Assembly: GCA_014323825.1 (NCBI GenBank)
Contig: JACONI010000098.1
Span: 1-32,423, forward strand
Direction of reading: 5' to 3'
DNA length: 32,423 nt
Source: Ekhidna sp.
Lineage (GTDB): Bacteria > Bacteroidota > Bacteroidia > Cytophagales > Cyclobacteriaceae
The notes under the pieces were generated by a model. The model made no database searches and was not told the origin of the DNA. It saw nothing but the letters and a program-made list of their open reading frames with translations. Positions 9,093 through 31,428 of this stretch are shown here, piece after piece (positions within the stretch are counted from its first letter, which is position 1; the number at the start of each line of letters is the position of its first letter). The position numbers were made by a program, and so were the translations under genes.

Positions 9093-10304
9093 TTGAAGAA
9101 GTTTCAAGAAGCAACTGGAAGAACACTTGCGCTGCCGCGGTACCATTTAAGATGGATTGTAGTAGGGGTTGCTATTTTTATAAGTATTGGCTCCGTTTGG
9201 TACACAAATAGCATAGTGGTCCAAATCCGGGAACGAGAAAGCAGGCAGATGGAGATTTATGCAAGCTCTTTGAAATTTTTAGCCAATGAATCAGAAAATA
9301 TCAGTTTCATCTTGATTCTGGACGAGATCGTAAAGGCCAACCATACGATCCCCGTTATTCTTACTGACGCAAATGGACTGCCTGAATATCATCGAAATCT
9401 ACCAAAAGCGGATCAACGAACCGAAGAGGCTAAAACAGCTTACCTATTGAGGGAGATAGAGAGGATGAAGAAGCAGCATGACCCTATTTCAGTTACGCTG
9501 GCTGATGATAAAGGCAGTACCTATGGTACAAAGTTTATTTACTATAAGAATTCATACCTTCTTAGTCAGCTTAAATACTATCCGTATGTTCAATTATCAG
9601 TCATCGCTCTTTTTGGCATGGTCACATTTTTGGTATTAAATTCACTAAAAAGAGCGGAACAGGACAGGGTCTGGGTGGGGCTGGCAAAGGAAACAGCCCA
9701 CCAGTTAGGCACCCCGCTTTCCTCCTTAATGGCATGGTCCGAATACTTCAAGCAACTTTATCCGGATCAAATTGATGCAATGCTGGAATTCGATAAGGAT
9801 ATTGATCGATTGAAGGTTGTCACAAATCGCTTTTCCGGTATCGGTAGTGAACCACAGCTTTCCAAACGTAACATTACCGAGATCATCGAGGAAGTCGTTT
9901 GTTACCTGGAAAAGCGTTTTTCAAAAAAGATGGTAATGAGTGTTTCTTCTTTTCCGACAAGAGAGATTGAGGCCAAAGTCAACCCATCTTTGTTTGCCTG
10001 GGTAATCGAAAACCTATGTAAAAATGCTGTAGATGCTATGGAAGGAAAAGGTTCAATTGACATTAAAATCTTAAAAGCCAATGAAGGTAGAATTGCCATT
10101 GACGTTTCAGATACAGGTAAAGGTATCGTCAAAAACAAATTAAAGGATGTTTTTAACCCCGGCTACACTACTAAGAAAAGAGGCTGGGGGCTGGGGTTAA
10201 CCCTGGCACATAGAATAGTGGAGCAATACCACGAAGGTAAGATCTTTGTAAAGCATTCGGAAATAAATAAAGGAACGACTTTTCGAATTTACATTAATGG
10301 GTGA
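9093..10304 (+). CDS. Membrane sensor histidine kinase
   Basis: This 403-residue inner-membrane kinase has two membrane helices (about 21-38 and 166-183) flanking an extracytoplasmic sensor of about 125 residues. No HAMP or PAS domain is evident. The H-box is KETAHQLGTPLSSLMAW with phospho-accepting His203. The N-box is ENLCKNAVDAM (306-316), the G1 box DVSDTGKGI (337-345) and the G2 box GWGLGLT (364-370), so all ATP-binding elements are present. The start is TTG at 9093: the frame is open only from 9042, no ATG or GTG lies upstream in it, and the first internal ATG (Met53) would remove the first helix. It follows the ABC pair by 43 bp and may be co-transcribed. No response regulator is adjacent, so the partner and signal are unknown. 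Confidence 0.88.
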   Translation: MKKFQEATGRTLALPRYHLRWIVVGVAIFISIGSVWYTNSIVVQIRERESRQMEIYASSLKFLANESENISFILILDEIVKANHTIPVILTDANGLPEYHRNLPKADQRTEEAKTAYLLREIERMKKQHDPISVTLADDKGSTYGTKFIYYKNSYLLSQLKYYPYVQLSVIALFGMVTFLVLNSLKRAEQDRVWVGLAKETAHQLGTPLSSLMAWSEYFKQLYPDQIDAMLEFDKDIDRLKVVTNRFSGIGSEPQLSKRNITEIIEEVVCYLEKRFSKKMVMSVSSFPTREIEAKVNPSLFAWVIENLCKNAVDAMEGKGSIDIKILKANEGRIAIDVSDTGKGIVKNKLKDVFNPGYTTKKRGWGLGLTLAHRIVEQYHEGKIFVKHSEINKGTTFRIYING

Positions 10305-16907: not shown

Positions 16908-19900
16908 ATGAGTCGCGTGCTAATCATTCTGGTGGGATGTCTGGCAGGCAGCACAGTCGCTGCTCAGGACTTGGAGCCTGATTTTGCCCGATATATCGGC
17001 GATACGGGTAATGATCAGGGCTTTGGCGTAGCCGCCGACAGTGAGGGTAACGTGTGGGCTACGGGCTTTTTCCATGGCAGCATTGACATTGACAGAGACG
17101 GCAGCAATGATTTGACGAGTAAAGGTGGCAGAGACAGCTATATCACAAAGTTTGACCGCAACAGGAATTTGCTTGCCGCTTTCACTATCGGCAGCAGCGG
17201 CGATGATCAGGGCAACAGCATAGCCACCGACAGTGACGGTAATGCGTGGGCGATAGGCTATTTTCAGGGCAGCATTGACATGGACGGAGACGGCACCAAT
17301 GAGTTGACGAGCAAGGGCGAGCGGGACGGCTACGTCATCAAATTCGACAGCGACGGAAGTTTGCTTGCGGCCTTCAATATCGGAGGCAGCAGTGATGACC
17401 GCGGCATAGGCATTGTCGCCGACGGTGAGGGTAACGTGTGGACCACGGGCTTTTTCCAGGGCAGCATTGACATGGACGGAGACGGCACCAACGAGCTGAC
17501 GAGTAAGGGCGATCGGGACAGCTACGTCATCAAATTCGACCGCAACGGAAGTTTGCTCAAAGCCCTCACTATCGGCGGCAGCGGTGATGACCGGGGCATA
17601 GCCATCGCTGCCGAAGGCAATGGCAATGTGTGGGTTACCGGACGTTTTCAAGAGAGCATTGACATTGACGGAGACGGCACCAACGATTTGACCGGTAAGG
17701 GCGGTAATGATGGTTATGTAGTCCGATTCGACCGCAACGGGAATTTGCTTGCCGCCTTCACTATCGGAGGCAGCGGCGATGACCGGGGCATAGGTATCGC
17801 CGCCGACAGCAACGGAAATGCATGGGCTACGGGCTTTTTCCATGGCAGCATTGACATGGACGGAGACGGCAGCAATGAACTGACGAGTAATGGCGGCAGC
17901 GACAGCTATGTAGCCAAGTTCGGCAGCAATGGAGACTTGCGCTTTGCCTTCAATATCGGCAGCAGCGATAATGACGGGGGCTCAGGCATCACTGTCGACA
18001 GCCATGGTCATGCGTGGGCGGTAGGTCATTTCAAGGGCGGCATTGACCTCGACGGAGACGGCAGCAATGAGTTGACCGCTCCTGTTTCTTTCCCTTCACT
18101 AGGCACCAATGTCGATGGATATGTAGTCCGGTTCGGCAGCAACGGGGACTTGCGCTTTGCCTTATCTGTTGGCGAAATAGCTATAGATAATGTTTTTAAT
18201 ACGAATAGCAGAGTCAATGACATCGTCACCGACAGCACCGGGGAGACCTGGTGGATTACAGGATCTTTCGGGTGGTTTCTAAGATTTAAAGTGCCGGGAG
18301 ACGCTGAGCGGATCCTTGTTACTGATAATAGCTTTAAGAATAGTAATAATAGCTATGTAGTCAAATTTTCTAATGCGGCTCCCACCGGCCTCAGCCTCCG
18401 CAGCAGCAACCTTAGTGAAAACGTCACAGCCAACACGGCTGTCGGCACTTTCACAACCACCGACCCCGATACGGGGGATACCTTTACCTACGAGTTGGCA
18501 GATGGTACGGGAGCTACGGATAATGCTGCCTTCACCATTGCCGGAGACGCACTGCAAATCAACAGCTCCCCGGACTACGAAACGAAGTCGCGTTACGACA
18601 TCCGTGTGAGCACTACCGATACGTGGGGAAATAGTTACTCGGAAAGTTTCACCATTACCGTTACCAACGTGAACGAAGCCCCGACGGACATTGAACTTGA
18701 CAACAAGAGCATCAATGAAAACGTCACAGCCAACACGGCTGTCGGCACTTTCACCACCACCGACCCCGATACGGGGGATACCTTTACCTACGAGTTGGCA
18801 GACGGTACGGGAGATACGGATAATGCTGCCTTCACCATTGCCGGAGACGCACTGCAAATCATCAGTTCCCCCGACTTTGAAACGCAGTCGAGTTACGACA
18901 TCCGAGTTCAAACTACCGATGCGGGGGGAAATAGTTACTCGGAAAGTTTCACCGTTACGGTTACTAATGTAAACGAAGCCCCGACGGACATTGAACTTGA
19001 CAACAAGAGCATCAATGAAAACGTCGCAGCCAACACTGTCGTCGGCACTTTCACCACCACCGACCCCGATACGGGGGATACCTTTACCTACGAGTTGGCA
19101 GACGGTACGGGAGATGCGGATAACACTGCCTTCACCATTGTCGGGAACCAACTGCAAATCAACAGCTCCCCGGACTACGAAACGAAGTCGCGTTACGACA
19201 TCCGAGTTCAAACTACCGATGCGGGAGGAGAGAGTTACTCGGAAAGTTTCACCGTTACGGTTACTAATGTAAACGAAGCCCCGACGCTTACCGTTGATGT
19301 TACCAATGTTTCCTTAGCGGACGGCACTTCCTCAGGTACCGTCGTTGCAACAGTTACGGGTGCGGATGAAGATGTAGGGGATGCCTCCAATTTAATTTAT
19401 TCCATTGTGTCAGGAGATGCTCACAGTGATTTTGCTATCGACTCCGGTACGGGAGTCATTACCGTAGCCAAAGCACTTTCCCGCATGAGAACGGCGATGT
19501 ACACGCTTGAGGTACAGGCTGCTGATGCCGGAGGAAAGACAGGCACTATTGAGATCACCGTTAGAGTCAATGCTCCGGGTAACACCGATCCGACCGTCAC
19601 CGCCGGTCAAACCTTCTCGGTAGCGGAGAACTCCACGTCCGGGACGGCGGTCGGCACGGTTGCAGGTACAGATGCCGATACCGGTGATAATTTAACTTAT
19701 CGGATTACCGGCGGCAATGCCGGCAATGTTTTCTCCCTCGCCGGCAGCGGTGAAATTACCACTGCGGGAACCCTTAACCATGAGGGCACGGGGAGTTATA
19801 CGCTGACGGTACGGGTTAGTGACGGGAATGGAGGGACAGGCACCGGTGAGGTCACCATTAATATTACCGATGTGAACGAAGCCCCTGCGTTTGCCATGCG

Positions 19901-21377
19901 TACATATTCGCAGAACGTGGCAGAAAATACCGCTGCAAATACGGCGGTAGTGACGGTGAGCGCAACGGATGAAGACGATACCGACACCCCGACTTATGAA
20001 ATCACCTCAGGCAATACCGGCGATGTTTTCGCAATAGATGTAAGGTCGGGACAAATTACCATCGCAGCAGGAAAAAGCCTTGACCATGAAGGCATGGGGA
20101 GTTACACCCTTACCGTAACCGCCCGAGATGATGCAGACACTCCGCTGACAGATGAGGCCACGGTCACCCTTACGGTTGATGATGTGAACGAAGCCCCCGA
20201 GTTTGGTAATGCTGCTTATATGCAGAACGTGGCAGAAAATACCGCTGTAGATGCGGTGGTGGTGACGGTGAGCGCAACGGATGAAGACGATACCGACACC
20301 CCGACTTATGAAATCACCTCAGGTAATACCAACAATGATTTTAAAATCAATGCAAACACAGGAGTCATTGCCGTAGCAAAAGCCCTTACCGGCAAGGTTG
20401 GGAACAGATATACCCTCACCGTAAGCGCCCGTGATGATGCAGACACTCCGCTGACCGCCGAGGCCACGGTCACCCTTACGGTTACCGATGTAAATGACAA
20501 CGATCCGGTGATTACCTCCGATAACGCAAAAAGCGTAGCAGAGAATACCACCACAGTACTGACCGTCACCGCCACCGATGCGGATGCCAACACAACCCTC
20601 ACCTACTCCGTCAGTGGAGGAGCAGACGAAGATAGTTTCAGCATTGATGACCGCAGCGGGGCTTTGACTTTCAATACGCCCCCTGATTTTGAAGCCCCGA
20701 GCAGTAATGCCGGTAATAATACCTACGTTGTGCAAGTAACGGCAAATGATGGGACGAGAGACAGCAGTCCGCAGACCATTACCGTTACGGTTACCGGTGT
20801 AAATGACAACGCTCCGGTGATTACCTCCGATAACGCAAAAAGCGTAGCAGAGAATACCACCACAGTACTGACCGTCACCGCCACCGATGCGGATGCGAAC
20901 ACAACCCTCACCTACTCCGTCAGCGGAGGATCGGACAGGAGCAGTTTTGGCATTGACCAAAATAGCGGTGCTTTGATGTTCAATACGGCTCCTGATTTTG
21001 AAGCAAAGGGCAGTGCTGCCGGTAATAATACCTACGTTGTGCAAGTAACGGCAAATGACGGGACGAGAGACAGCAGTCCGCAGACCATTACCGTTACAGT
21101 CACCGATGACCCGAATGATGATGTGTTGGGTGTTCCGTCTGCCGAGGGTGTAGTCCTCTACCCGAATCCGGCCTCCGGTCACTTCAGACTGACAGGTATT
21201 TCGGGGCAGTTGAGTGAAGTGACACTCATTGGCACGGAGGGCAAAGCAGTCAGGAGCTACCCCGTCTCAAAGTCCGGATTGTACGATCTTTCAGGGTTGA
21301 ATGAGGGTCTCTTTTTCGTTTTCACTGAAGGAGACGGAGGACGCAAGGCTGTGGGCAGGATTGTGATAAGGAAGTGA
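16908..21377 (+). CDS. Large secreted beta-propeller/cadherin protein with T9SS sorting domain
   Basis: The 1489-residue protein starts with a signal peptide (MSRVLIILVGCLAGSTVAAQ). Residues about 25-470 are seven SBBP-like repeats of 64 residues (GNVWATGFF.GSIDMDGDG..ELTSKG), probably a seven-bladed propeller. Each full blade carries a DxDxDG loop typical of Ca2+ binding. About nine cadherin-like domains follow (about 485-1400), several with DVNEAP or DVNDN linkers. The end is a T9SS type A sorting domain (LYPNPASGHFRLTGIS, a SGLNEGLFFVF segment, final VIRK). The protein is expected to be exported by T9SS and to sit on the surface, probably as an adhesin (inference). The sorting domain and one cadherin repeat nearly match the gene at 2-1510. 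The coding DNA looks more GC-rich than its neighbours. The ATG at 16908 gives the signal peptide directly. Confidence 0.95.
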   Translation: MSRVLIILVGCLAGSTVAAQDLEPDFARYIGDTGNDQGFGVAADSEGNVWATGFFHGSIDIDRDGSNDLTSKGGRDSYITKFDRNRNLLAAFTIGSSGDDQGNSIATDSDGNAWAIGYFQGSIDMDGDGTNELTSKGERDGYVIKFDSDGSLLAAFNIGGSSDDRGIGIVADGEGNVWTTGFFQGSIDMDGDGTNELTSKGDRDSYVIKFDRNGSLLKALTIGGSGDDRGIAIAAEGNGNVWVTGRFQESIDIDGDGTNDLTGKGGNDGYVVRFDRNGNLLAAFTIGGSGDDRGIGIAADSNGNAWATGFFHGSIDMDGDGSNELTSNGGSDSYVAKFGSNGDLRFAFNIGSSDNDGGSGITVDSHGHAWAVGHFKGGIDLDGDGSNELTAPVSFPSLGTNVDGYVVRFGSNGDLRFALSVGEIAIDNVFNTNSRVNDIVTDSTGETWWITGSFGWFLRFKVPGDAERILVTDNSFKNSNNSYVVKFSNAAPTGLSLRSSNLSENVTANTAVGTFTTTDPDTGDTFTYELADGTGATDNAAFTIAGDALQINSSPDYETKSRYDIRVSTTDTWGNSYSESFTITVTNVNEAPTDIELDNKSINENVTANTAVGTFTTTDPDTGDTFTYELADGTGDTDNAAFTIAGDALQIISSPDFETQSSYDIRVQTTDAGGNSYSESFTVTVTNVNEAPTDIELDNKSINENVAANTVVGTFTTTDPDTGDTFTYELADGTGDADNTAFTIVGNQLQINSSPDYETKSRYDIRVQTTDAGGESYSESFTVTVTNVNEAPTLTVDVTNVSLADGTSSGTVVATVTGADEDVGDASNLIYSIVSGDAHSDFAIDSGTGVITVAKALSRMRTAMYTLEVQAADAGGKTGTIEITVRVNAPGNTDPTVTAGQTFSVAENSTSGTAVGTVAGTDADTGDNLTYRITGGNAGNVFSLAGSGEITTAGTLNHEGTGSYTLTVRVSDGNGGTGTGEVTINITDVNEAPAFAMRTYSQNVAENTAANTAVVTVSATDEDDTDTPTYEITSGNTGDVFAIDVRSGQITIAAGKSLDHEGMGSYTLTVTARDDADTPLTDEATVTLTVDDVNEAPEFGNAAYMQNVAENTAVDAVVVTVSATDEDDTDTPTYEITSGNTNNDFKINANTGVIAVAKALTGKVGNRYTLTVSARDDADTPLTAEATVTLTVTDVNDNDPVITSDNAKSVAENTTTVLTVTATDADANTTLTYSVSGGADEDSFSIDDRSGALTFNTPPDFEAPSSNAGNNTYVVQVTANDGTRDSSPQTITVTVTGVNDNAPVITSDNAKSVAENTTTVLTVTATDADANTTLTYSVSGGSDRSSFGIDQNSGALMFNTAPDFEAKGSAAGNNTYVVQVTANDGTRDSSPQTITVTVTDDPNDDVLGVPSAEGVVLYPNPASGHFRLTGISGQLSEVTLIGTEGKAVRSYPVSKSGLYDLSGLNEGLFFVFTEGDGGRKAVGRIVIRK
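17095..18072. repeat. 192-bp intragenic tandem repeats (propeller blades)
   Basis: The GACGGC.(G/C)CAA segment encoding DGDG(S/T)N recurs at 17095, 17287, 17479, 17671, 17863 and 18055, exactly 192 bp apart. Units differ at scattered positions but share long identical stretches. Confidence 0.9.
18411..19290. repeat. 300-bp intragenic tandem repeats (cadherin domains), three copies
   Basis: ACGTC.CAGCCAACAC marks unit positions 18421, 18721 and 19021, exactly 300 bp (100 codons) apart. The copies share long identical runs, pointing to recent duplication or ongoing homogenisation. Confidence 0.92.
20491..21105. repeat. 309-bp intragenic tandem repeat (cadherin domains), two copies
   Basis: TAAATGACAACG at 20491 and TAAATGACAACG at 20800 begin two nearly identical 309-bp units (103 codons). 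Each encodes VNDN(D/A)PVITSDNAKSVAEN and ends VQVTANDGTRDSSPQTITV. Confidence 0.92.
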
Positions 21378-22945: not shown

Positions 22946-24349
22946 TTATTTTTTTAATGAACCAATCATATCCTTCGGTTTTATCCATTCCGTAAATTGC
23001 TTATTTGTAACAAGCCCCAATTCGATTGCTGCTTTCCTCAGGGTGGTGCCTTCTTTGTGTGCTTTTTTCGCAATCTTCGCTGCATTCTCATAACCAATAT
23101 GCGTGTTAAGTGCAGTAACCAGCATTAAAGAGTTCTCTAATTTTTCCCGGATTACTTCATGGTTCGGTTCAATGCCGACAGCACAGTTATCATTAAAGGA
23201 TTCACAAGCATCTCCGATCAATCTTGCAGAGTTAAGAAGATTGAAGATCATCATTGGTTTGAATACGTTTAACTCAAAGTGGCCGGAAGCTCCACCTGTC
23301 GAAACAGCCACGTCGTTTCCAATTACCTGAGCACATACCATTGTTAATGCTTCGCACTGAGTGGGGTTAACTTTCCCCGGCATGATAGAAGATCCCGGTT
23401 CATTTTCCGGAATCAAGATTTCCCCGATTCCGCTTCTGGGCCCTGAGCAAAGCATGCGAATGTCATTACCGATCTTCATCAAACTGACAGCTAATTGTTT
23501 TAAGGCACCGTGAGCCTCTACTATCGCATCGTGAGCGGCAAGTGCTTCAAATTTGTTTGCGGCGGTTTTTAGCGGGAGTCCTGAATTTTTAGCAATTTTT
23601 TTCGCAACTAATTCCGCGTATCCCTCCGGTGTGTTTAAGCCGGTTCCTACCGCAGTACCACCTAAAGCAAGTTCGGAGAGGTGTTCTAAAGTGTTGTTCA
23701 GGGCCTTTAAACCATGATTTAGCTGCGAAACGTAACCCGAAAACTCTTGCCCCAGACTTAATGGCGTAGCATCCATAAAGTGGGTTCGGCCGATTTTCAC
23801 AACATCCATGAAAGCTTCTGATTTCCTGAGAAGCGTATTTCTAAGCTTGGTCAATTTTGGAATGGTATGATCTACCATTATCTTGTATCCGGCAATGTGC
23901 ATTGCTGTCGGGAAGGTGTCATTGGAGCTTTGACTTTTATTTACATCGTCGTTTGGATGAATGATTTTTTTGTCATCAGTAAGCGATCCGCCGTTCAAAA
24001 CATGCGCTCGATTAGCAATCACTTCGTTACTGTTCATGTTGGATTGCGTACCGGAACCCGTTTGCCAAACCACTAGTGGGAATTGGTCGTCAAGTTCTCC
24101 GTTTAGCATTTCTTCACATACTTTTCCGATCAAATCAGCCTTCTCTTTCGGTAATACACCAAGTTCCATGTTGGTCTCGGCAGCTGATTTCTTCAGGATG
24201 GCAAAAGCACGGATAATTTCAATGGGCATTTGATTTTTTTCACCTCCAATCTTGAAATTATCCTTTGATCGCTGGGTTTGAGCACCCCAGTATCTGTCGG
24301 CGGGAACCTTTACCTCGCCCATGGTATCATGTTCTATGCGGTATTCCAT
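22946..24349 (-). CDS. fumC: Class II fumarate hydratase
   Basis: FumC interconverts fumarate and L-malate in the TCA cycle; it is a cytoplasmic homotetramer and, unlike class I, needs no iron-sulfur cluster. The 467-residue length is typical. The N-terminus [26 protein letters not shown], the [18 protein letters not shown] block and [21 protein letters not shown] identify the superfamily. The signature [15 protein letters not shown] contains the catalytic Ser loop. The [18 protein letters not shown] block separates it from aspartase (AspA), which is the main alternative. The gene is divergent from the response regulator, with overlapping promoter regions in the 112-bp gap. Confidence 0.96.
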
Positions 24350-24408: not shown

Positions 24409-24441
24409 TTTTGGTAATTCAAAAATCCCATCATACCTTTG
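24409..24441 (+). promoter_or_regulatory. Bacteroidota-type promoter for the response regulator gene
   Basis: TTTTG (24409-24413), a 20-nt spacer and TACCTTTG (24434-24441) match the consensus fully. The start point would be near 24447, inside the palindrome that follows, leaving a leader of only about 15 nt. Confidence 0.75.
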
Positions 24442-24458
24442 TTTAGAATTATTCTAAA
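24442..24458. promoter_or_regulatory. Palindromic operator-like site before the response regulator
   Basis: TTTAGAAT-T-ATTCTAAA is a perfect 8+1+8 palindrome starting right after the -7 element and ending 3 nt before the ATG, an ideal place for a repressor. The same motif precedes the DUF4856 gene (25196-25212). Its TTTAG...CTAAA frame recalls DtxR-family iron boxes; the regulator itself is not identified. Confidence 0.6.
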
Positions 24459-24461
24459 TAA

Positions 24462-25097
24462 ATGACAACCCGTGTATTTCTGGCAGATTTTCAATTTTTA
24501 ACCCGAAAAGGCATGTCTGCCCTGATTAAATCCATTCCCGGATTTGAAATGTCACTTGAAATTGATGATGTGCAGGGGCTTCAATCGGAAATAAAAAAAT
24601 CGACTCCTGACTTGATTGTTTTAGACTTGGACGGAAAGGAAAAAGAACTGGTTCCTCAGATAGAGGAAATCAAACGAAAGGAAAAAAATACCTCTTTTCT
24701 GGTCATCTCAAATATTCAAAGCAGAGAATCAATTAAAAGGCTTTTAAATGCCGGAATTAAAGGTATCCTTACTAAAAACTGTAGCGAAGAGGAAATTACC
24801 AATGGATTGATAGCAGTATCCAAAGGCCGTCGATTTTTCTGTAATACCATTTTGGAATTGGTGATTCAAGGAGAGACAGAGGAAAAGGATTGTGAGCCGA
24901 CAGATTTATCTGCCAGAGAGTTTGAAGTTTTAGCATTGATCACAAAAGGAATGACTACCGCTGCTATCGCTGATCAACTGTATCTTTCTGTTCATACAAT
25001 TAATTCTCATAGAAAGAATATGCTGAAAAAACTGGGGTTAAGCTCACCAACCGAACTGGTCGTCTACGCATTGGAAAGTGGCTTGATTAAGAAATAA
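24462..25097 (+). CDS. NarL/LuxR-family response regulator
   Basis: A two-domain DNA-binding regulator of 211 residues. The receiver domain (about 1-120) has the phospho-acceptor Asp55 in LIVLDLDG, Ser83 at the switch Thr/Ser position and Lys105 in GILTKN. The acidic pair that normally reads DDH near residue 9 is ADF here, so one metal-binding Asp is missing and phosphorylation may be weakened. The C-terminal LuxR-type helix-turn-helix (about 147-208) is canonical: LSAREFEVLALITKGMTT, then IADQLYLSVHTINSHRKNML and KKLGLSSPTELV. No kinase is adjacent. The gene lies directly upstream of the metal-uptake operon in the same direction, with the same palindrome before both units, so it is probably part of that system, as regulator or co-regulated factor. 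Confidence 0.92.
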   Translation: MTTRVFLADFQFLTRKGMSALIKSIPGFEMSLEIDDVQGLQSEIKKSTPDLIVLDLDGKEKELVPQIEEIKRKEKNTSFLVISNIQSRESIKRLLNAGIKGILTKNCSEEEITNGLIAVSKGRRFFCNTILELVIQGETEEKDCEPTDLSAREFEVLALITKGMTTAAIADQLYLSVHTINSHRKNMLKKLGLSSPTELVVYALESGLIKK

Positions 25098-25195
25098 TCC
25101 CTATTTCTAGCTATTCATTCACTATATCTAGTGATATGAAAATTCCTGATTACTAGCGATTGTGAGGTTTTATCCGGGAAGTCAATTTTGCATTG

Positions 25196-25212
25196 TTTAG
25201 AAATATTCTAAA
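25196..25212. promoter_or_regulatory. Palindromic operator-like site before the metal-uptake operon
   Basis: TTTAGAA-ATA-TTCTAAA repeats the motif at 24442-24458 and is preceded by the same TTG. The matching -7 element is degraded to TTGCATTG, so the promoter may depend on an activator or lie elsewhere. The site ends 33 nt before the preferred DUF4856 start. Confidence 0.6.
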
Positions 25213-25245
25213 TAGTAATTTATAATGCATTTTCAATCGTTTAAA

Positions 25246-26475
25246 ATGACAAAAACAACGAATAAAATATTTGCCTTGATTATTGGAGGCTTCACTGTAT
25301 TCACGGGGTGTGGTGATGATGATGAAGATAATCCTGTTTCTATTAACGCACCGGAGACTTACAGTTTCACAAGAGATGGACAATCGACGGTCTCTTTCAG
25401 CGGACAAACCACACGAATAAAAATGGCGGAGGAAATTATTACTGCTTTGAAAACCGAAACACTTTCTGAAGTACGAATTGATGCAATGTTTGCTCATAAA
25501 AAGGGTGCTGAAGATTTTGATAATGCAACTTTAAACGCCTCGGATAAAAGTGTCAGAAGCAAAACGGCTGCTTCGTCAGACTTTTTCTCGGCAAATACAA
25601 CTGAAGCAGCTGCAATCAAGGAAGAATTTGACAGTTGGATTGCCGGTCAGGTTAAAGAAGTATTCCCCAATTGGGAAACGGAAGCAGCTGCCGGTCAGCC
25701 GGGATTTATTCAGGAAGCAGGCGGCGGATCCAAGCGATACGTTAATGCTAAAGGTTTGGAATTGAATCAGGCGTTCAATAAAGGATTGATTGGAGCACTG
25801 ATGGTAGATCAGATGGTAAATAATTATGTAAGCACCTCTGTTCTGGACGCAGGAACAAATAGAGAAGACAATGATGCCGGGACACTTGCCGAAGGGAAAA
25901 ATTACACAAATATGGAGCATAAGTGGGACGAGGCATACGGATATGCCTACGGCACTTCGGCGAACCCGGCAGACCCCAATCGAACGATAGGATCTGATGA
26001 TAGCTTTTTGAATAAATACATCGGCAGAGTTGAGGGTGATGAAGATTTTGAAGGAATTGCTGATGAAATCTATCAGGCATTCAAATTGGGAAGAGCAGCG
26101 ATTGTGGCCGGAGACTACGCTGCCAGGGATGCACAAGCGGATATTATCAGAGAGAAAGTTTCCGAGGTAGTCGCTGTCCGGGCCGTTTACTACTTACAAC
26201 AAGGTAAGGCAGGACTTGAAGCAAGTACCATTGACCGTGCTTCTGTTTTTCATGACCTGTCTGAAGGTTATGGATTTATCTATAGCCTTCAGTTCACCAG
26301 AAAACCGGGAAGCAAATCACCCTATTTTTCAAACTCGAAAGTTAAAGATATGCTTGAAAGATTGATGGGTGACGGTAACAACGGCTTATGGGATATAACG
26401 CCGGCTACACTGGATAAAATTTCAAGTGAAATTGCGGCTCCGTTTTCATTCACGGTAGATGAGGCAGGGAGCTAA
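25246..26475 (+). CDS. DUF4856-family lipoprotein of the metal-uptake operon
   Basis: The preferred start is the ATG at 25246 (409 residues), which gives a lipoprotein signal MTKTTNKIFALIIGGFTVFTGC with lipidated Cys22; the upstream ATG at 25225 adds seven residues. An acidic tether (GDDDEDN) follows. The mature protein is mostly helical, with NAPETYSFTRDGQSTVSFSGQ near the start, and FNKGLIGALMVDQMVNNY, NYTNMEHKWDEAYGY and FHDLSEGYGFIYSLQFTRKP later. These match what I recall of DUF4856, a family commonly encoded beside imelysins. Conserved His, Glu and Asp residues in HKWDEAYG and FHDLSEG could bind a metal (inference). It is the first gene of a four-gene unit ending in a FecA-like receptor. 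No enzymatic function is known. Confidence 0.85.
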   Translation: MTKTTNKIFALIIGGFTVFTGCGDDDEDNPVSINAPETYSFTRDGQSTVSFSGQTTRIKMAEEIITALKTETLSEVRIDAMFAHKKGAEDFDNATLNASDKSVRSKTAASSDFFSANTTEAAAIKEEFDSWIAGQVKEVFPNWETEAAAGQPGFIQEAGGGSKRYVNAKGLELNQAFNKGLIGALMVDQMVNNYVSTSVLDAGTNREDNDAGTLAEGKNYTNMEHKWDEAYGYAYGTSANPADPNRTIGSDDSFLNKYIGRVEGDEDFEGIADEIYQAFKLGRAAIVAGDYAARDAQADIIREKVSEVVAVRAVYYLQQGKAGLEASTIDRASVFHDLSEGYGFIYSLQFTRKPGSKSPYFSNSKVKDMLERLMGDGNNGLWDITPATLDKISSEIAAPFSFTVDEAGS

Positions 26476-26524: not shown

Positions 26525-26543
26525 AGACTTAAAGAAGAAGTTG

Positions 26544-27632
26544 ATGGAGAAGTTGAATTCGTTTTTTGTTATCTGTTTTGCGATTACGATGACTGTCTTG
26601 GTAAGCTGTTCTGAAGATGATCCGGATGAAAGCCCTGATAATTTTGATCGGCAGAAAATGCTTGCAAATTGGGCAGATAATTTTATTATTCCCGGGTACC
26701 GGTCTTATGTCGCCGGTCTGTCCCAGCTGGATCGGGATGTCCGTTTATTCACTGCTTCCCCCTCCAAAGAAACACTGGCTATAGTGAGATCATCCTGGCT
26801 CACTGCAAATCTTGTCTGGCAGAAGGTAGGAATGTATGAAATTGGGAAAGCTGAGGAAATCACACTGATCAACTTTACCAATATATACCCAACAGCCACA
26901 GCAGACTTAGAGGCTGCCGTTGCATCCGGTTCTTATGATCTCACCTCTGTAAATAAGCAAGATGAACAAGGTCTTCCAGCCATTGAGTACTTAATTTATG
27001 GTGTAAGAAATTCGGATGAAGAAATCATCTCCCTTTTTGCAAATGTTAATTATCGGACATTTCTAAAAGACCTGAGCACGAGGTTAAAAATGCTGGCTGA
27101 GACTGTGTTGTCAGATTGGGAAAATGGTTATCGAGATGCCTTCGTTGACAATGATGGTTCCGAGACAACCTCATCGGTAAATAAGTTAGTGAATGATTAC
27201 ATTTTCTATTATGAAAAACATCTGCGTGCAGGAAAGATTGGCATTCCGGCAGGTGTATTCTCAAGAAGCGAGCTGCCGGAGAAAGTAGAAGGTTTGTACA
27301 GCGGCACCTCAAAAGTACTGTTTGATGCCGCCTTACAGGCTATGGTTGATTTTTTCAACGGAGCGGATGGTGAGAGTCTGGCGACTTATCTTCAATTCTT
27401 AAATACAGTAGCTAAAGGTGAAGATTTGGCACAGGCTGTCAATGTTCAGTTTGAGGCTGTGGAAGAAAAGGCTTCCGGCCTTTCCGATAACTTTAATAAA
27501 CAGATAGCATCAAATAACTCATTGATGCTGGAAACTTACGATGAACTCCAAAAGAATGTAGTGAATCTAAAAGTGGACATGCTGCAAGCTCTTAACATTA
27601 GGGTAGACTTTGTAGATGCAGACGGAGATTAG
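26544..27632 (+). CDS. Imelysin-family (IrpA-like) lipoprotein
   Basis: Imelysins are helical periplasmic or surface proteins, named after a supposed M75 peptidase and now linked to iron or haem uptake. The 362-residue protein begins at the ATG at 26544 (a TTG directly before it is unlikely). It has a lipoprotein signal ending LVSC (Cys22) and an acidic tether (SEDDPDESPDN). NWADNFIIPGYRSYVAGLSQL opens the first helical bundle, and IYPTATADLEAAV lies near residue 115-127. The family's GxHxxE motif reads GLPAIE (residues 143-148): the Glu is kept but His is replaced by Pro, as in the IrpA-like subgroup I recall. The HTTM gene follows after 3 bp, so they are co-translated. Confidence 0.88.
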   Translation: MEKLNSFFVICFAITMTVLVSCSEDDPDESPDNFDRQKMLANWADNFIIPGYRSYVAGLSQLDRDVRLFTASPSKETLAIVRSSWLTANLVWQKVGMYEIGKAEEITLINFTNIYPTATADLEAAVASGSYDLTSVNKQDEQGLPAIEYLIYGVRNSDEEIISLFANVNYRTFLKDLSTRLKMLAETVLSDWENGYRDAFVDNDGSETTSSVNKLVNDYIFYYEKHLRAGKIGIPAGVFSRSELPEKVEGLYSGTSKVLFDAALQAMVDFFNGADGESLATYLQFLNTVAKGEDLAQAVNVQFEAVEEKASGLSDNFNKQIASNNSLMLETYDELQKNVVNLKVDMLQALNIRVDFVDADGD

Positions 27633-27635
27633 GTT

Positions 27636-28967
27636 GTGGAAGTGGTATCGTGGATAAGGTGCGAAAGAAAGGCTGCCCCTCTGGCAGTATTTCGCATTTT
27701 CTTTGGCATTATGATGTGCTTAAGCATCATACGTTTTTGGGCGAATGGGTGGATTCGAAAACTTTACATTGAACCTGCATTCTTCTTTTCCTACTATGGC
27801 TTTGAATGGGTCAAGCCCCCGGGCTCATTTACTTACCTCCTCTTCGTCATTTGCGGGCTGGCCGCATTGGCAGTAGCGATAGGATTTAAGTACAGACTGT
27901 CCATAGCCGTATTCTTTCTTAGTTTCACCTATATCGAGCTAATGGATAAAACTACTTATTTGAACCACTACTATTTCATTAGTATTTTAAGTTTTTTGAT
28001 GATTTTCCTACCGGCAGCCGGTCATTTTTCATGGGATTCGAGAAGACGGAACACTGAGCACATTCCGGCATGGACGACAGACAGCATTAAGCTACTTCTA
28101 TCCATTGTTTATTGCTATGCGGGCCTTGCAAAATTGAATTCTGACTGGCTGTTCAGGGCAATGCCGTTAAAGATTTGGCTTCCCGGAAAATACGATATTC
28201 CGTTTTTAGGAGATTTCCTGCACAATGAATGGGTAATTTATGCCTTTAGCTGGGGAGGTGCAATCTATGACCTCACGATTCCCTTTTTACTCCTTTGGAA
28301 AAGGAGCAGAGTATTTGCTTTTGTACTGGTCGTTGTTTTTCATTTGCTGACAAGCGTTTTGTTCCCTATTGGCATGTTCCCTTATATCATGATTGTGAGT
28401 GCGTTGATATTCTTCGATGCGGACTTTCATGAAAAGATCATTGCCTTCTTCAAAAAACTGCTTCGAATAAACTACTTGCCGTCTCCTACTTTAAAGGTCA
28501 CCACTCCTAAGTGGAGCTTGATAATACTTTTTATTTTTTTCAGTATTCAGTTAATGTTTCCGTGGCGTTACCTATGCTATCCCGGTGAGCTTTTCTGGAC
28601 GGAGGAGGGGTTTCGATTTTCCTGGCGGGTGATGTTGGTGGAAAAAGCGGGATATGCGAATTTTAAAATTGTTGATCGAACCAACGATGAGATTTTCTAC
28701 ATTGACAATAGCGATTTTCTTACCCCCTTTCAGGAAAAGCAGATGGCGTTTCAGCCTGACTTCATTTTGGAATACGCCCACTATCTTCGCAATCACTTTG
28801 GCAAACAGGGAAAAGAAGTGGAGGTGTATGTGGAAAGCTATGTGGCGTTGAATGGCAGAAGAAGTCAGCCTTTTATTAATCCTTCGGTTGATTTAACGAA
28901 AGTGAAAGAATCATTTGCCCGTAAAAAATGGATTTTACCATTCAACGATGAAATCAAAGGGATTTAA
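27636..28967 (+). CDS. HTTM-domain membrane protein, gamma-carboxylase-related
   Basis: HTTM (horizontally transferred transmembrane) domains are bacterial relatives of vitamin K-dependent gamma-glutamyl carboxylase. The 443-residue protein has an N-terminal membrane domain with about eight helices (about 15-320) and a polar C-terminal tail (about 325-443). Two carboxylase landmarks appear conserved: YLNHYYFISIL with His111, matching the essential NHSY histidine, and AGLAKLNSDWL with Lys166, matching the AGVKKLDADW lysine proposed as catalytic base in the human enzyme (hand alignment). The start is GTG at 27636, 3 bp after the imelysin-like gene; the end overlaps the receptor gene by 20 bp. 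It may modify an operon partner or serve as the inner-membrane component; neither is shown. Confidence 0.85.
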   Translation: MEVVSWIRCERKAAPLAVFRIFFGIMMCLSIIRFWANGWIRKLYIEPAFFFSYYGFEWVKPPGSFTYLLFVICGLAALAVAIGFKYRLSIAVFFLSFTYIELMDKTTYLNHYYFISILSFLMIFLPAAGHFSWDSRRRNTEHIPAWTTDSIKLLLSIVYCYAGLAKLNSDWLFRAMPLKIWLPGKYDIPFLGDFLHNEWVIYAFSWGGAIYDLTIPFLLLWKRSRVFAFVLVVVFHLLTSVLFPIGMFPYIMIVSALIFFDADFHEKIIAFFKKLLRINYLPSPTLKVTTPKWSLIILFIFFSIQLMFPWRYLCYPGELFWTEEGFRFSWRVMLVEKAGYANFKIVDRTNDEIFYIDNSDFLTPFQEKQMAFQPDFILEYAHYLRNHFGKQGKEVEVYVESYVALNGRRSQPFINPSVDLTKVKESFARKKWILPFNDEIKGI

Positions 28968-31428
28968 AGTTTTCTTTTTGGGCCTTTTGACGGTGAAATC
29001 GCTGACTGCACAACTGACCTTATCAGGCACTATTATTGATGCTGATTCCGGTGGTCCAATCAAAGGAGCGGAAGTTTACGACAGGAACTCCCGTCAGCTG
29101 GCTGCAACAAATGATGACGGGTTCTTTCGCCTGGTGAATCTTCAGGAAGGTCTTCACCAAATTGTCATCATGTCTTTGGAATACGAGAGCCTGGAGCGGG
29201 AGTTAAATCTTTCGGAAGACAAGGAAATCACAATACCTATGGAAGAATTTCAACAGGAACTTTCCGAAGTGGTTGTAAGCAGAAAGAGAGAGGAAATATT
29301 TGCTTTGAGCCGATTAAGGCACGTAGAGGGAACTGCAATTTATGCCGGCAAAAAATCTGAAGTAGTGCTCTTGGATCAAATGGTAGGCAATATCGCTGCC
29401 AACAATGCAAGACAGATCTACTCACAGGTAGTTGGATTGAATATTTACGAGAGTATTGACGCAGGACTTCAGCTAAACATTGGAGGAAGAGGGCTGGATC
29501 CTAACAGAACTTCCAACTTCAATACACGTCAAAATGGGTACGATATTAGTGCTGATGTACTTGGTTATCCCGAAAGCTATTACACTCCTCCGGCAGAGGC
29601 TTTAAGTGAAATTCAGATAGTTCGCGGAGCTGCCTCTTTGCAATACGGAACTCAGTTTGGAGGCTTAATTAATTTCAAGATGAAATCACCTTCCGACAGG
29701 CCGATAGAGTTAATATCCAGGCAGTCAGCGGGCTCTTTTGGCTTGTTCAACACCTTTAATGCTTTGAGCGGAACATTAGGGAGGAGTTCTTATTACACTT
29801 ATTTCAATTATAAAAGAGGTGACGGCTTCCGTCCGAACTCAGCCTTTGATGCGAAGAATTTTTTTGGAAATTTTCGCCATAATTTATCGGGAAGAACCTC
29901 GGCGATATTTGAGTTTACCTCACTCAATTATTTGGTTCAACAGCCTGGCGGTCTTACCGACTTTCTGTTCAATTCAGATGCTGCATACACGATAAGCAAT
30001 CGCTCCAGAAATTGGTTTGAAGTGGACTGGAAGCTGACAACTCTCAAGCTAGAGCATGGACTCTCGGATCGTTCCGACCTGAGCATTCAGTTCTTTAGCT
30101 TAAATGCAGCTCGAAATGCGCTTGGTTTTAGGGGAGACCCGAAGGAATTAAATGCGAATCCGATTCTCCGGAAAGATGAAAAGAACACAGATGGAAGTTT
30201 CTTTTTTTCAAGAGATCTAATCAAGGGGAAATTTCAAAATTGGGGTGTTGAAACAAGATACCTTACAAGGTATTCCTTAGGCACTAAAAATGCCTTTTTT
30301 TTGCTGGGAGCTAAGTATTATAGAGCGAATAACTCAGAAATGCAAGGACCGGGAAGTCGTGGATCGGATGCCGATTTTGACTTCAGGTTAAACGAAAATC
30401 CGGACTACATCAATCAATCGGACTTTGAATTTCCAAACAGGAACCTGGCTATATTTGGTGAGCATATTTTTTTTATCAATGACAGGCTGTCCGTCACACC
30501 GGGCTTTCGATATGAGTTTATCAAAACAGCAAGCAAAGGAATTTACAATGATGAAAATCTCGATCTGGCCGGAAATGTCCAGCCTCTGGGCGATACCACT
30601 GATAACAGAACATTTGACCGCTCCTTTGTTCTATTGGGAATAGGGATTAGTTATGATTTCTCTTCCAATGCGGAGATGTATCTGAATGTTTCCGAAAACT
30701 ACCGATCGGTGACATTTAGCGATATTAGGGTAACCAACCCCGCCTTTGTAGTAGACCCGGACATTAGTGATGAAAGAGGCTATACGTTTGATATTGGTTT
30801 AAGAGGAAAATGGAAAGAGAAGATTTCTTATGATGTAGGATTGTATGGGCTATTGTATGACGACCGAATTGGGATCATTTTGGATGACAGGGCGAATAGG
30901 GTCAGGTCAAATATCGGAACGGCATTAATTGCGGGATTAGAATTTTTCGCTGACTGGAATCTGGCTAAATCAATCGGAATGGCAGAAAACCATAAACTCA
31001 ACTGGTTTGTCAATTCAGCATGGACTGAATCACAATATTTATCTTCCGATGAGAACAATGTAGAGGGTAAGCGTGTAGAGTTCATCCCAAACGTCAATCT
31101 GAAAACGGGACTATCATTTGGTTACAAAAATTTGCTCGGCAGTTTGCAATTCACTTATCTTTCCGAACAATACACGGATGTCGAAAACGCTCCGATTCCC
31201 GATGATAATGACAATAGAAATGGAATTATTGGAGAAATACCAGGCTATCAGGTAATAGACCTGTCCTTTTCCTATTCTTTCAAATGGCTAAAACTGGAAA
31301 CGGGAATAAATAATTTGTTAGATGAAAAGTATTTTACAAGAAGAGCAACGGGTTATCCGGGTCCCGGAATCATACCCTCCGAACCGAGGAGTCATTATTT
31401 GACACTGGAAATAAAGCTGCCCGAGTAG
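28948..31428 (+). CDS. FecA-like TonB-dependent outer-membrane receptor
   Basis: TonB-dependent receptors import metal chelates across the outer membrane using energy from TonB. I prefer the ATG at 28948 (826 residues), which yields a signal peptide (MKSKGFKVFFLGLLTVKSLTAQ); the TTG 33 nt upstream spoils it. A carboxypeptidase-regulatory-like domain follows (LSGTIIDADSGGPIKGAEVYD, about 22-100). The plug domain (about 120-260) contains LNIGGRGLDPNRTSNFNTRQ, YDISADVLGYPESYYTPP and IQIVRGAASLQYGTQFGG, a pattern typical of FecA (ferric citrate) receptors in this phylum. The 22-strand barrel ends in YLTLEIKLPE, preceded by INNLLDEKYFTRRATGYPGPG. It overlaps the HTTM gene by 20 bp, is last in the operon, and implies ferric iron, perhaps citrate-bound, as substrate. 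Confidence 0.94.
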   Translation: MKSKGFKVFFLGLLTVKSLTAQLTLSGTIIDADSGGPIKGAEVYDRNSRQLAATNDDGFFRLVNLQEGLHQIVIMSLEYESLERELNLSEDKEITIPMEEFQQELSEVVVSRKREEIFALSRLRHVEGTAIYAGKKSEVVLLDQMVGNIAANNARQIYSQVVGLNIYESIDAGLQLNIGGRGLDPNRTSNFNTRQNGYDISADVLGYPESYYTPPAEALSEIQIVRGAASLQYGTQFGGLINFKMKSPSDRPIELISRQSAGSFGLFNTFNALSGTLGRSSYYTYFNYKRGDGFRPNSAFDAKNFFGNFRHNLSGRTSAIFEFTSLNYLVQQPGGLTDFLFNSDAAYTISNRSRNWFEVDWKLTTLKLEHGLSDRSDLSIQFFSLNAARNALGFRGDPKELNANPILRKDEKNTDGSFFFSRDLIKGKFQNWGVETRYLTRYSLGTKNAFFLLGAKYYRANNSEMQGPGSRGSDADFDFRLNENPDYINQSDFEFPNRNLAIFGEHIFFINDRLSVTPGFRYEFIKTASKGIYNDENLDLAGNVQPLGDTTDNRTFDRSFVLLGIGISYDFSSNAEMYLNVSENYRSVTFSDIRVTNPAFVVDPDISDERGYTFDIGLRGKWKEKISYDVGLYGLLYDDRIGIILDDRANRVRSNIGTALIAGLEFFADWNLAKSIGMAENHKLNWFVNSAWTESQYLSSDENNVEGKRVEFIPNVNLKTGLSFGYKNLLGSLQFTYLSEQYTDVENAPIPDDNDNRNGIIGEIPGYQVIDLSFSYSFKWLKLETGINNLLDEKYFTRRATGYPGPGIIPSEPRSHYLTLEIKLPE

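Follow-up and report, generated by a model that had tools for sequence, protein, structure and literature searches.

Activators that are themselves repressed by Fur, such as PvdS, FecI, PchR, and AlcR, are needed, together with relief from Fur, for the expression of uptake genes. In Shewanella oneidensis, the orphan OmpR/CpxR-type response regulator SO2426 has a Fur box just downstream of its -10 element, and it activates a siderophore operon that itself bears a Fur box (PMC3127752). Among the Bacteroidota, iron limitation induces hemerythrin/response-regulator operons, PG1236-PG1238 in Porphyromonas gingivalis and BT0519-BT0520 in Bacteroides thetaiotaomicron (PMC10434189). For Riemerella anatipestifer, the Fur box is reported as ATTTAGAATTATTCTAAAT, with EMSA on promoters holding such boxes (PMC5609570). 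In the same species, the TonB receptor / gamma-carboxylase / imelysin operon RAYM_09779-09794 was 2.1- to 3.1-fold up without iron (PMC5609570).

We analyzed a window, the whole stretch of 32,423 nucleotides of Ekhidna sp. DNA, in which a response regulator gene is followed by a TonB-receptor operon. We propose a coherent feed-forward loop in which Fur keeps the regulator and the operon repressed and the regulator in turn activates the operon; we give this reading a probability of roughly 0.7. The orphan NarL/LuxR-type response regulator (24462..25097, + strand) has 211 amino acids and matched PF00072 (38.1 bits) and PF00196 (65.6 bits). The class II fumarase gene fumC (22946..24349, - strand; TIGR00979, 770.9 bits) is divergent from it across a common intergenic region that holds the first palindrome, box 1, and the same divergent order was found in several relatives. 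The operon on the other side starts with a DUF4856 lipoprotein gene (25246..26475, + strand; PF16148, 517.7 bits), whose product showed weak similarity to an FEA1-related lipoprotein. The ATG at 25246 yielded a predicted lipobox signal peptide and appeared to be a better start than 25225. It is followed by genes for an imelysin-family protein (26541..27632, + strand; PF09375), an HTTM / vitamin K-dependent gamma-carboxylase-like membrane protein (27636..28967, + strand; PF05090, PF22777), and a TonB-dependent receptor (28915..31428, + strand; PF00593, PF07715), the called start of which overlaps the preceding gene. The receptor was nearest to siderophore/FecA-type models, with TIGR01783 at 129.7 bits, under the cut-off. 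In the open-licence literature, DUF4856 was not found named together with HTTM or imelysin. Just 3' of the TonB receptor of this operon, the genus carries a gene for a conserved protein of 111-116 amino acids with no Pfam match, which has one or two Fur-type boxes 5' of it (loci L170 and L174, and C95:14537 of this genome in L006). Large proteins with multiple cadherin repeats are also encoded in the window, at 16908-21377 and 14-1510, both on the + strand.

The palindrome TTTAGAANNNTTCTAAA had exactly two exact matches in the whole 3.0 Mb assembly, at 24442 and 25196. Dinucleotide shuffles of the window gave an expected 0.39 matches of this type at up to two mismatches, and two exact ones were observed. 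Promoter elements were called as consensus matches, and transcription starts were inferred. The predicted promoter of the response regulator (24411..24441, + strand) consists of TTG at 24411-24413, a 20-nt spacer, and the -7 element TACCTTTG at 24434-24441, and it is of the canonical Bacteroidota type. Box 1, a predicted Fur box (TTTAGAATTATTCTAAA, 24442..24458, no strand), directly abuts this -7 element and lies on the expected transcription start; it was kept in relatives, and it equals the core of the Riemerella Fur box. This agreed with the earlier note, which had placed the first palindrome right after a full-consensus promoter. In relatives of the genus, a TTTTTG/TACATTTG layout was found immediately 5' of the regulator box, as in the window. 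For the operon promoter, CAATTTTG (25183..25190, + strand) is the most likely -7 element; it lies 20 nt after TTG at 25160-25162 and 5 bp further upstream than the CATTG that abuts the box. The predicted Fur box 2 (TTTAGAAATATTCTAAA, 25196..25212, no strand) starts 5 bp 3' of this element, so that both palindromes sit at a promoter or inferred transcription start. The earlier note, which gave no coordinates for it, had described the -7 element of the second promoter as degraded. It was indeed imperfect, but in the register of CAATTTTG it differed from TANNTTTG by only one base. Both boxes were kept at both promoters in the genus relatives, and with both 17-mers found in the window, the claim that the two promoters share one palindrome stood.

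Conservation of the box was then counted at each class of site. The box stood 5' of DUF4856 in 74 of 78 loci from several Bacteroidota groups, compared with 1.7% of dinucleotide shuffles. We collected 24 homologues of the regulator from 23 genomes of the family (34-60% identity apart from the window's own). A box with at least 12 of 14 specified bases lay at most 110 bp upstream in 22 of the 24, compared with 0.4% of shuffles. Of 195 outer genes in these clusters, 22 had a box scoring as high; other receptor operons inflate this number. Together, these counts strongly supported a shared metal-responsive repressor and the membership of the response regulator in its regulon, both of which the earlier note had put forward. 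The genome search for the palindrome, which it had offered as a check, gave a divided answer. The loose 17-mer at up to two mismatches showed no genome-wide excess (73 versus 72 reversed-control matches), and a relaxed TTTAGA-N5-TCTAAA search was not enriched (33 versus 35). However, the 19-mer TTTAGAATNATTCTAAATA at up to two mismatches was enriched over the reversed control, with 12 versus 3 matches in this genome, 20 versus 1 in G005 and G007, and 16 versus 3 in G008. In the genus, the box also stood 5' of hemA, an ABC solute-binding protein gene (assigned at family level only), TonB receptors, and multihaem cytochromes. A Fur box was also found between a LacI-type regulator gene and a divergent SusC-like TonB-receptor gene in G007 and G005 (L160, L166), and a two-mismatch Fur box adjoins a LacI-type regulator gene at C101:39097 of this genome. 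This arrangement suggests a possible iron input to a sugar-type locus.

Several alternatives were weighed for the boxes. A chance likeness of two AT-rich palindromes would fit the lack of 17-mer enrichment, but it was refuted because the two sites are conserved throughout the genus and each site class is conserved in the family and phylum, which leaves it hardly any probability. The choice of repressor required more care. The genome has a Fur gene in the rsh-purA neighbourhood (C73:123445-123804; PF01475, 100.6 bits; top NCBIfam model Fur, under the equivalog cut-off), and it also has a Zur-like protein and an MntR-like DtxR protein. Some operators of the DtxR family are likewise AT-rich palindromes, and the DtxR-family protein here comes with manganese/zinc-type ABC genes. 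On these grounds a repressor of the DtxR/MntR type might be considered, as the earlier note did. However, the box equals the Riemerella Fur box, ATTTAGAATTATTCTAAAT, which matches box 1 at 18 of 19 positions and box 2 at 16-17 of 19. In addition, the genes that follow the box are iron and haem genes, and the promoter of the genome's own DtxR/MntR-ABC operon bears a different palindrome, TTTAGTCTAAACTAAA, instead of a Fur-type box; this is a candidate site and not clearly conserved. For these reasons the DtxR assignment was given up as very improbable, and the repressor is most likely Fur. Another member of the Fur family, such as Zur or PerR, could in principle read a generic AT-rich palindrome. 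On contig C65 (L024), the palindrome TTTTAGTCTAAACTAAAA lies directly 5' of the MntR-like/ABC operon and is likely an MntR-type operator distinct from the Fur box; in this genome, a search with the MntR-type palindrome matched its own promoter exactly, and elsewhere there was no clear enrichment. Box 1 might also belong to the divergent fumC and stand before the response regulator by happenstance. FumC is the iron-independent fumarase and would be a sensible gene for iron starvation, and the divergent gene order in this genome and several relatives fits such a role. Against this, box 1 directly follows the -7 element of the regulator and is about 90 bp from fumC, and the box accompanied regulator homologues also where fumC was not adjacent. 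It is therefore more than an element of fumC, although both genes may use it, and a purely accidental position before the regulator is highly doubtful. With Fur as the inferred reader of both palindromes, we turn to the regulator itself.

The receiver domain of the regulator has the phospho-acceptor D55 and K105, and the second pocket acid is absent. The homologues were similar: of the 24, 22 retained the Asp, 23 the Lys, and only 1 the second pocket acid, which left the phosphorylation pocket incomplete. Activation may therefore bypass the usual phosphorylation route. There was no kinase gene adjacent to the response regulator. A candidate partner kinase is encoded at 9093-10304 (+ strand) of the window; it has a HATPase_c match only and is followed by an outer-membrane beta-barrel gene, with no response regulator. 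No description of the regulator in Cytophagales was found in the open-licence literature.

A second conserved element was located upstream of box 2. It is a candidate activator site, TCACTATATCTAGTGA (TCACTA-N4-TAGTGA; 25119..25134, no strand), with a unique exact match in the genome. A candidate proximal half-site, TAGCGATTG (25154..25162, + strand), contains the -33 TTG at 25160-25162. The genus shares both elements at this position, and the cultured relative Ekhidna lutea (L060) has the regulator, the operon, and the elements. Sites of NarL have a 7-2-7 arrangement, and the 16-bp extent of the dyad fits it. A single exact dyad was present in each of four genomes (G000, G005, G007, and G008), in every case ahead of this operon; G016 had two, and its regulator/receptor cluster contained both of them. 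At up to one mismatch it was not enriched genome-wide, and the dyad is informative only in its exact or composite form. Of 295 genomes of the family, 52 contained the composite, defined as TAGTGA followed after a gap of 50-80 by a Fur box, compared with 11 matches altogether for the reversed controls. At least a dozen genera of the family had composites 5' of TonB-receptor genes, and in all ten composites scanned for it the first downstream gene was a TonB receptor. A single geometry was observed in 34 composites. TAGTGAT was followed after 20-25 bp (mostly 24-25) by TAGCGATTG, the -33 to -7 spacing was 20 nt (21 in four), and the Fur box came about 5 bp further on. The -7 element was present at constant spacing in 34/34 with no or one mismatch. 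A single mismatch was present in 23 of the 34, most often in the first position of the element, which is also where the window has it; these promoters plausibly need help. The TCACTA arm, which was not used to select composites, was present at up to one mismatch in 21 of 32 composites, compared with 1 of 544 in other registers. Variants of the composite, TCGCTA...TAGCGAT and TCACTA...TAGCTA, were observed beside the regulator in G006, at L315:10580 (+) and L315:15766 (-). The promoters of the regulators themselves gave a different picture. No TAGTGA- or GCGATTG-type element was found in 22 of 24, and these promoters lacked the composite; two of the 24 contained only an isolated TCACTA, and one more held scattered motifs.

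The element was linked to the regulator in several counts. About half of the composites that had not been chosen for it had a homologue of the regulator at a distance of 10 kb or less; regions picked for holding the regulator were excluded from this count. The chance of such nearness is below 0.4% per composite at roughly one homologue per 6 Mb genome, although many of the genomes are related, so that the very small binomial probability overstates the case; counted by genera, there are about a dozen instances. A homologue at E <=1e-30 was present in 27 of 30 genomes with composites, and the comparison rate in the family was 23 of 98 genomes at the stricter 1e-35. When these 98 genomes were searched for both, the composite was found in 10 of 23 with a homologue and 3 of 75 without (Fisher p = 1.5e-5), a co-presence that is confounded by phylogeny because the regulator-bearing genomes are related. 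Among the 78 DUF4856 operons, the element was present in 4/4 from the regulator-bearing genus and in 0/74 of the others, nearly all of which retain the Fur box. Conversely, G006 has no DUF4856, yet its regulator, with a Fur box, stands beside two other composite promoters. The regulator was absent from G002 and G009. A reading of G009 in which one locus had lost both regulator and element was rejected, since its DUF4856 operon has another location and different neighbours; this genome adds no more than one further case in which the two are missing. That operon has the Fur box and lacks the dyad, and it keeps GCGATTG. Two genomes counted against the linkage, G020 and G021, which have a distant homologue (42% and 34%) and no element at their DUF4856 operon.

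These results also bear on a reading in which the Fur boxes are real, but some other factor, a global activator or a local regulator, reads TCACTA-N4-TAGTGA and TAGCGATTG, which would leave the response regulator as no more than a co-regulated neighbour that has other targets. The GCGATTG kept without the dyad in G009 fits this reading, as does the half of the composites without a homologue within 10 kb; at those, either the binder would work in trans or a different protein would bind. Three observations oppose it: in about a dozen genera the regulator lies near the element, DUF4856 operons beyond the regulator-bearing genus lack the element, and in the clusters of G006 and G016 a single regulator has several composites around it. 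We regard another factor as a possible but unlikely reader. The response regulator is preferred as the binder of the dyad and as the activator; this was inferred from co-occurrence, and more weakly than the role of Fur. The earlier note had suggested that the operon promoter may need this regulator as an activator. The one-base departure of its -7 element from the consensus made that reasoning right, and the second conserved element, which accompanies the regulator, lent the suggestion unexpected support.

In the proposed circuit, iron-loaded Fur would occupy the transcription starts when iron is ample and repress the orphan NarL-type regulator and the DUF4856-imelysin-carboxylase-TonB receptor operon. 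Under iron scarcity, Fur would depart and the response regulator would be produced. The regulator would then bind TCACTA-N4-TAGTGA, and probably also the TAGCGATTG half-site at -33, and the bound regulator would activate the weak promoter of the operon. The operon would thus follow AND logic, with relief from Fur and the regulator both needed. With less confidence than for the loop at this locus, we lean toward a broader reading for the family. In it, a Fur-repressed orphan NarL-type regulator with an incomplete pocket would serve as a family-wide activator of iron uptake. It would read TCACTA-N4-TAGTGA dyads above a -33 half-site and, by way of a composite promoter whose geometry is fixed, drive several TonB-receptor operons in each genome.

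Iron control in environmental Bacteroidota is poorly mapped. If the proposal is true, the composite of activator dyad, -33 half-site, weak -7 element, and Fur box would be a readable signature of regulated TonB-receptor operons family-wide. Many TonB-receptor genes lack an assigned substrate or regulator, and the composite would also provide a testable activator for genes of this type. The Fur box was already known, and the family of NarL-type regulators and the composite promoter appear to be undescribed in the open-licence literature searched.

PvdS, FecI, PchR, and AlcR are ECF sigma factors or AraC-type activators, unlike the present regulator. The Fur regulon of Riemerella resembles this locus in its 17-19 bp palindrome, which lies less than 100 bp from the start codon, and in the TonB receptor / gamma-carboxylase / imelysin operon, which is iron- and Fur-responsive there; unlike here, neither such a response regulator nor a second element is reported in the sections of that paper considered (PMC5609570). 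In P. gingivalis and B. thetaiotaomicron, a response regulator gene of Bacteroidota is likewise found, there within the iron stimulon, but it is linked to a hemerythrin gene (PMC10434189). The closest precedent for the proposed logic is SO2426, where a Fur box is found both at the regulator and at the target operon, as here. SO2426 has a winged-helix OmpR-type output and CAAAA tandem repeats, whereas a GerE output and the TCACTA-N4-TAGTGA dyad were found here. It also comes from another phylum, and the present regulator is of the NarL/LuxR type and adjoins TonB receptor operons. If the proposal is true, the Fur/response-regulator feed-forward logic of the Shewanella type arose here with an unrelated regulator family.
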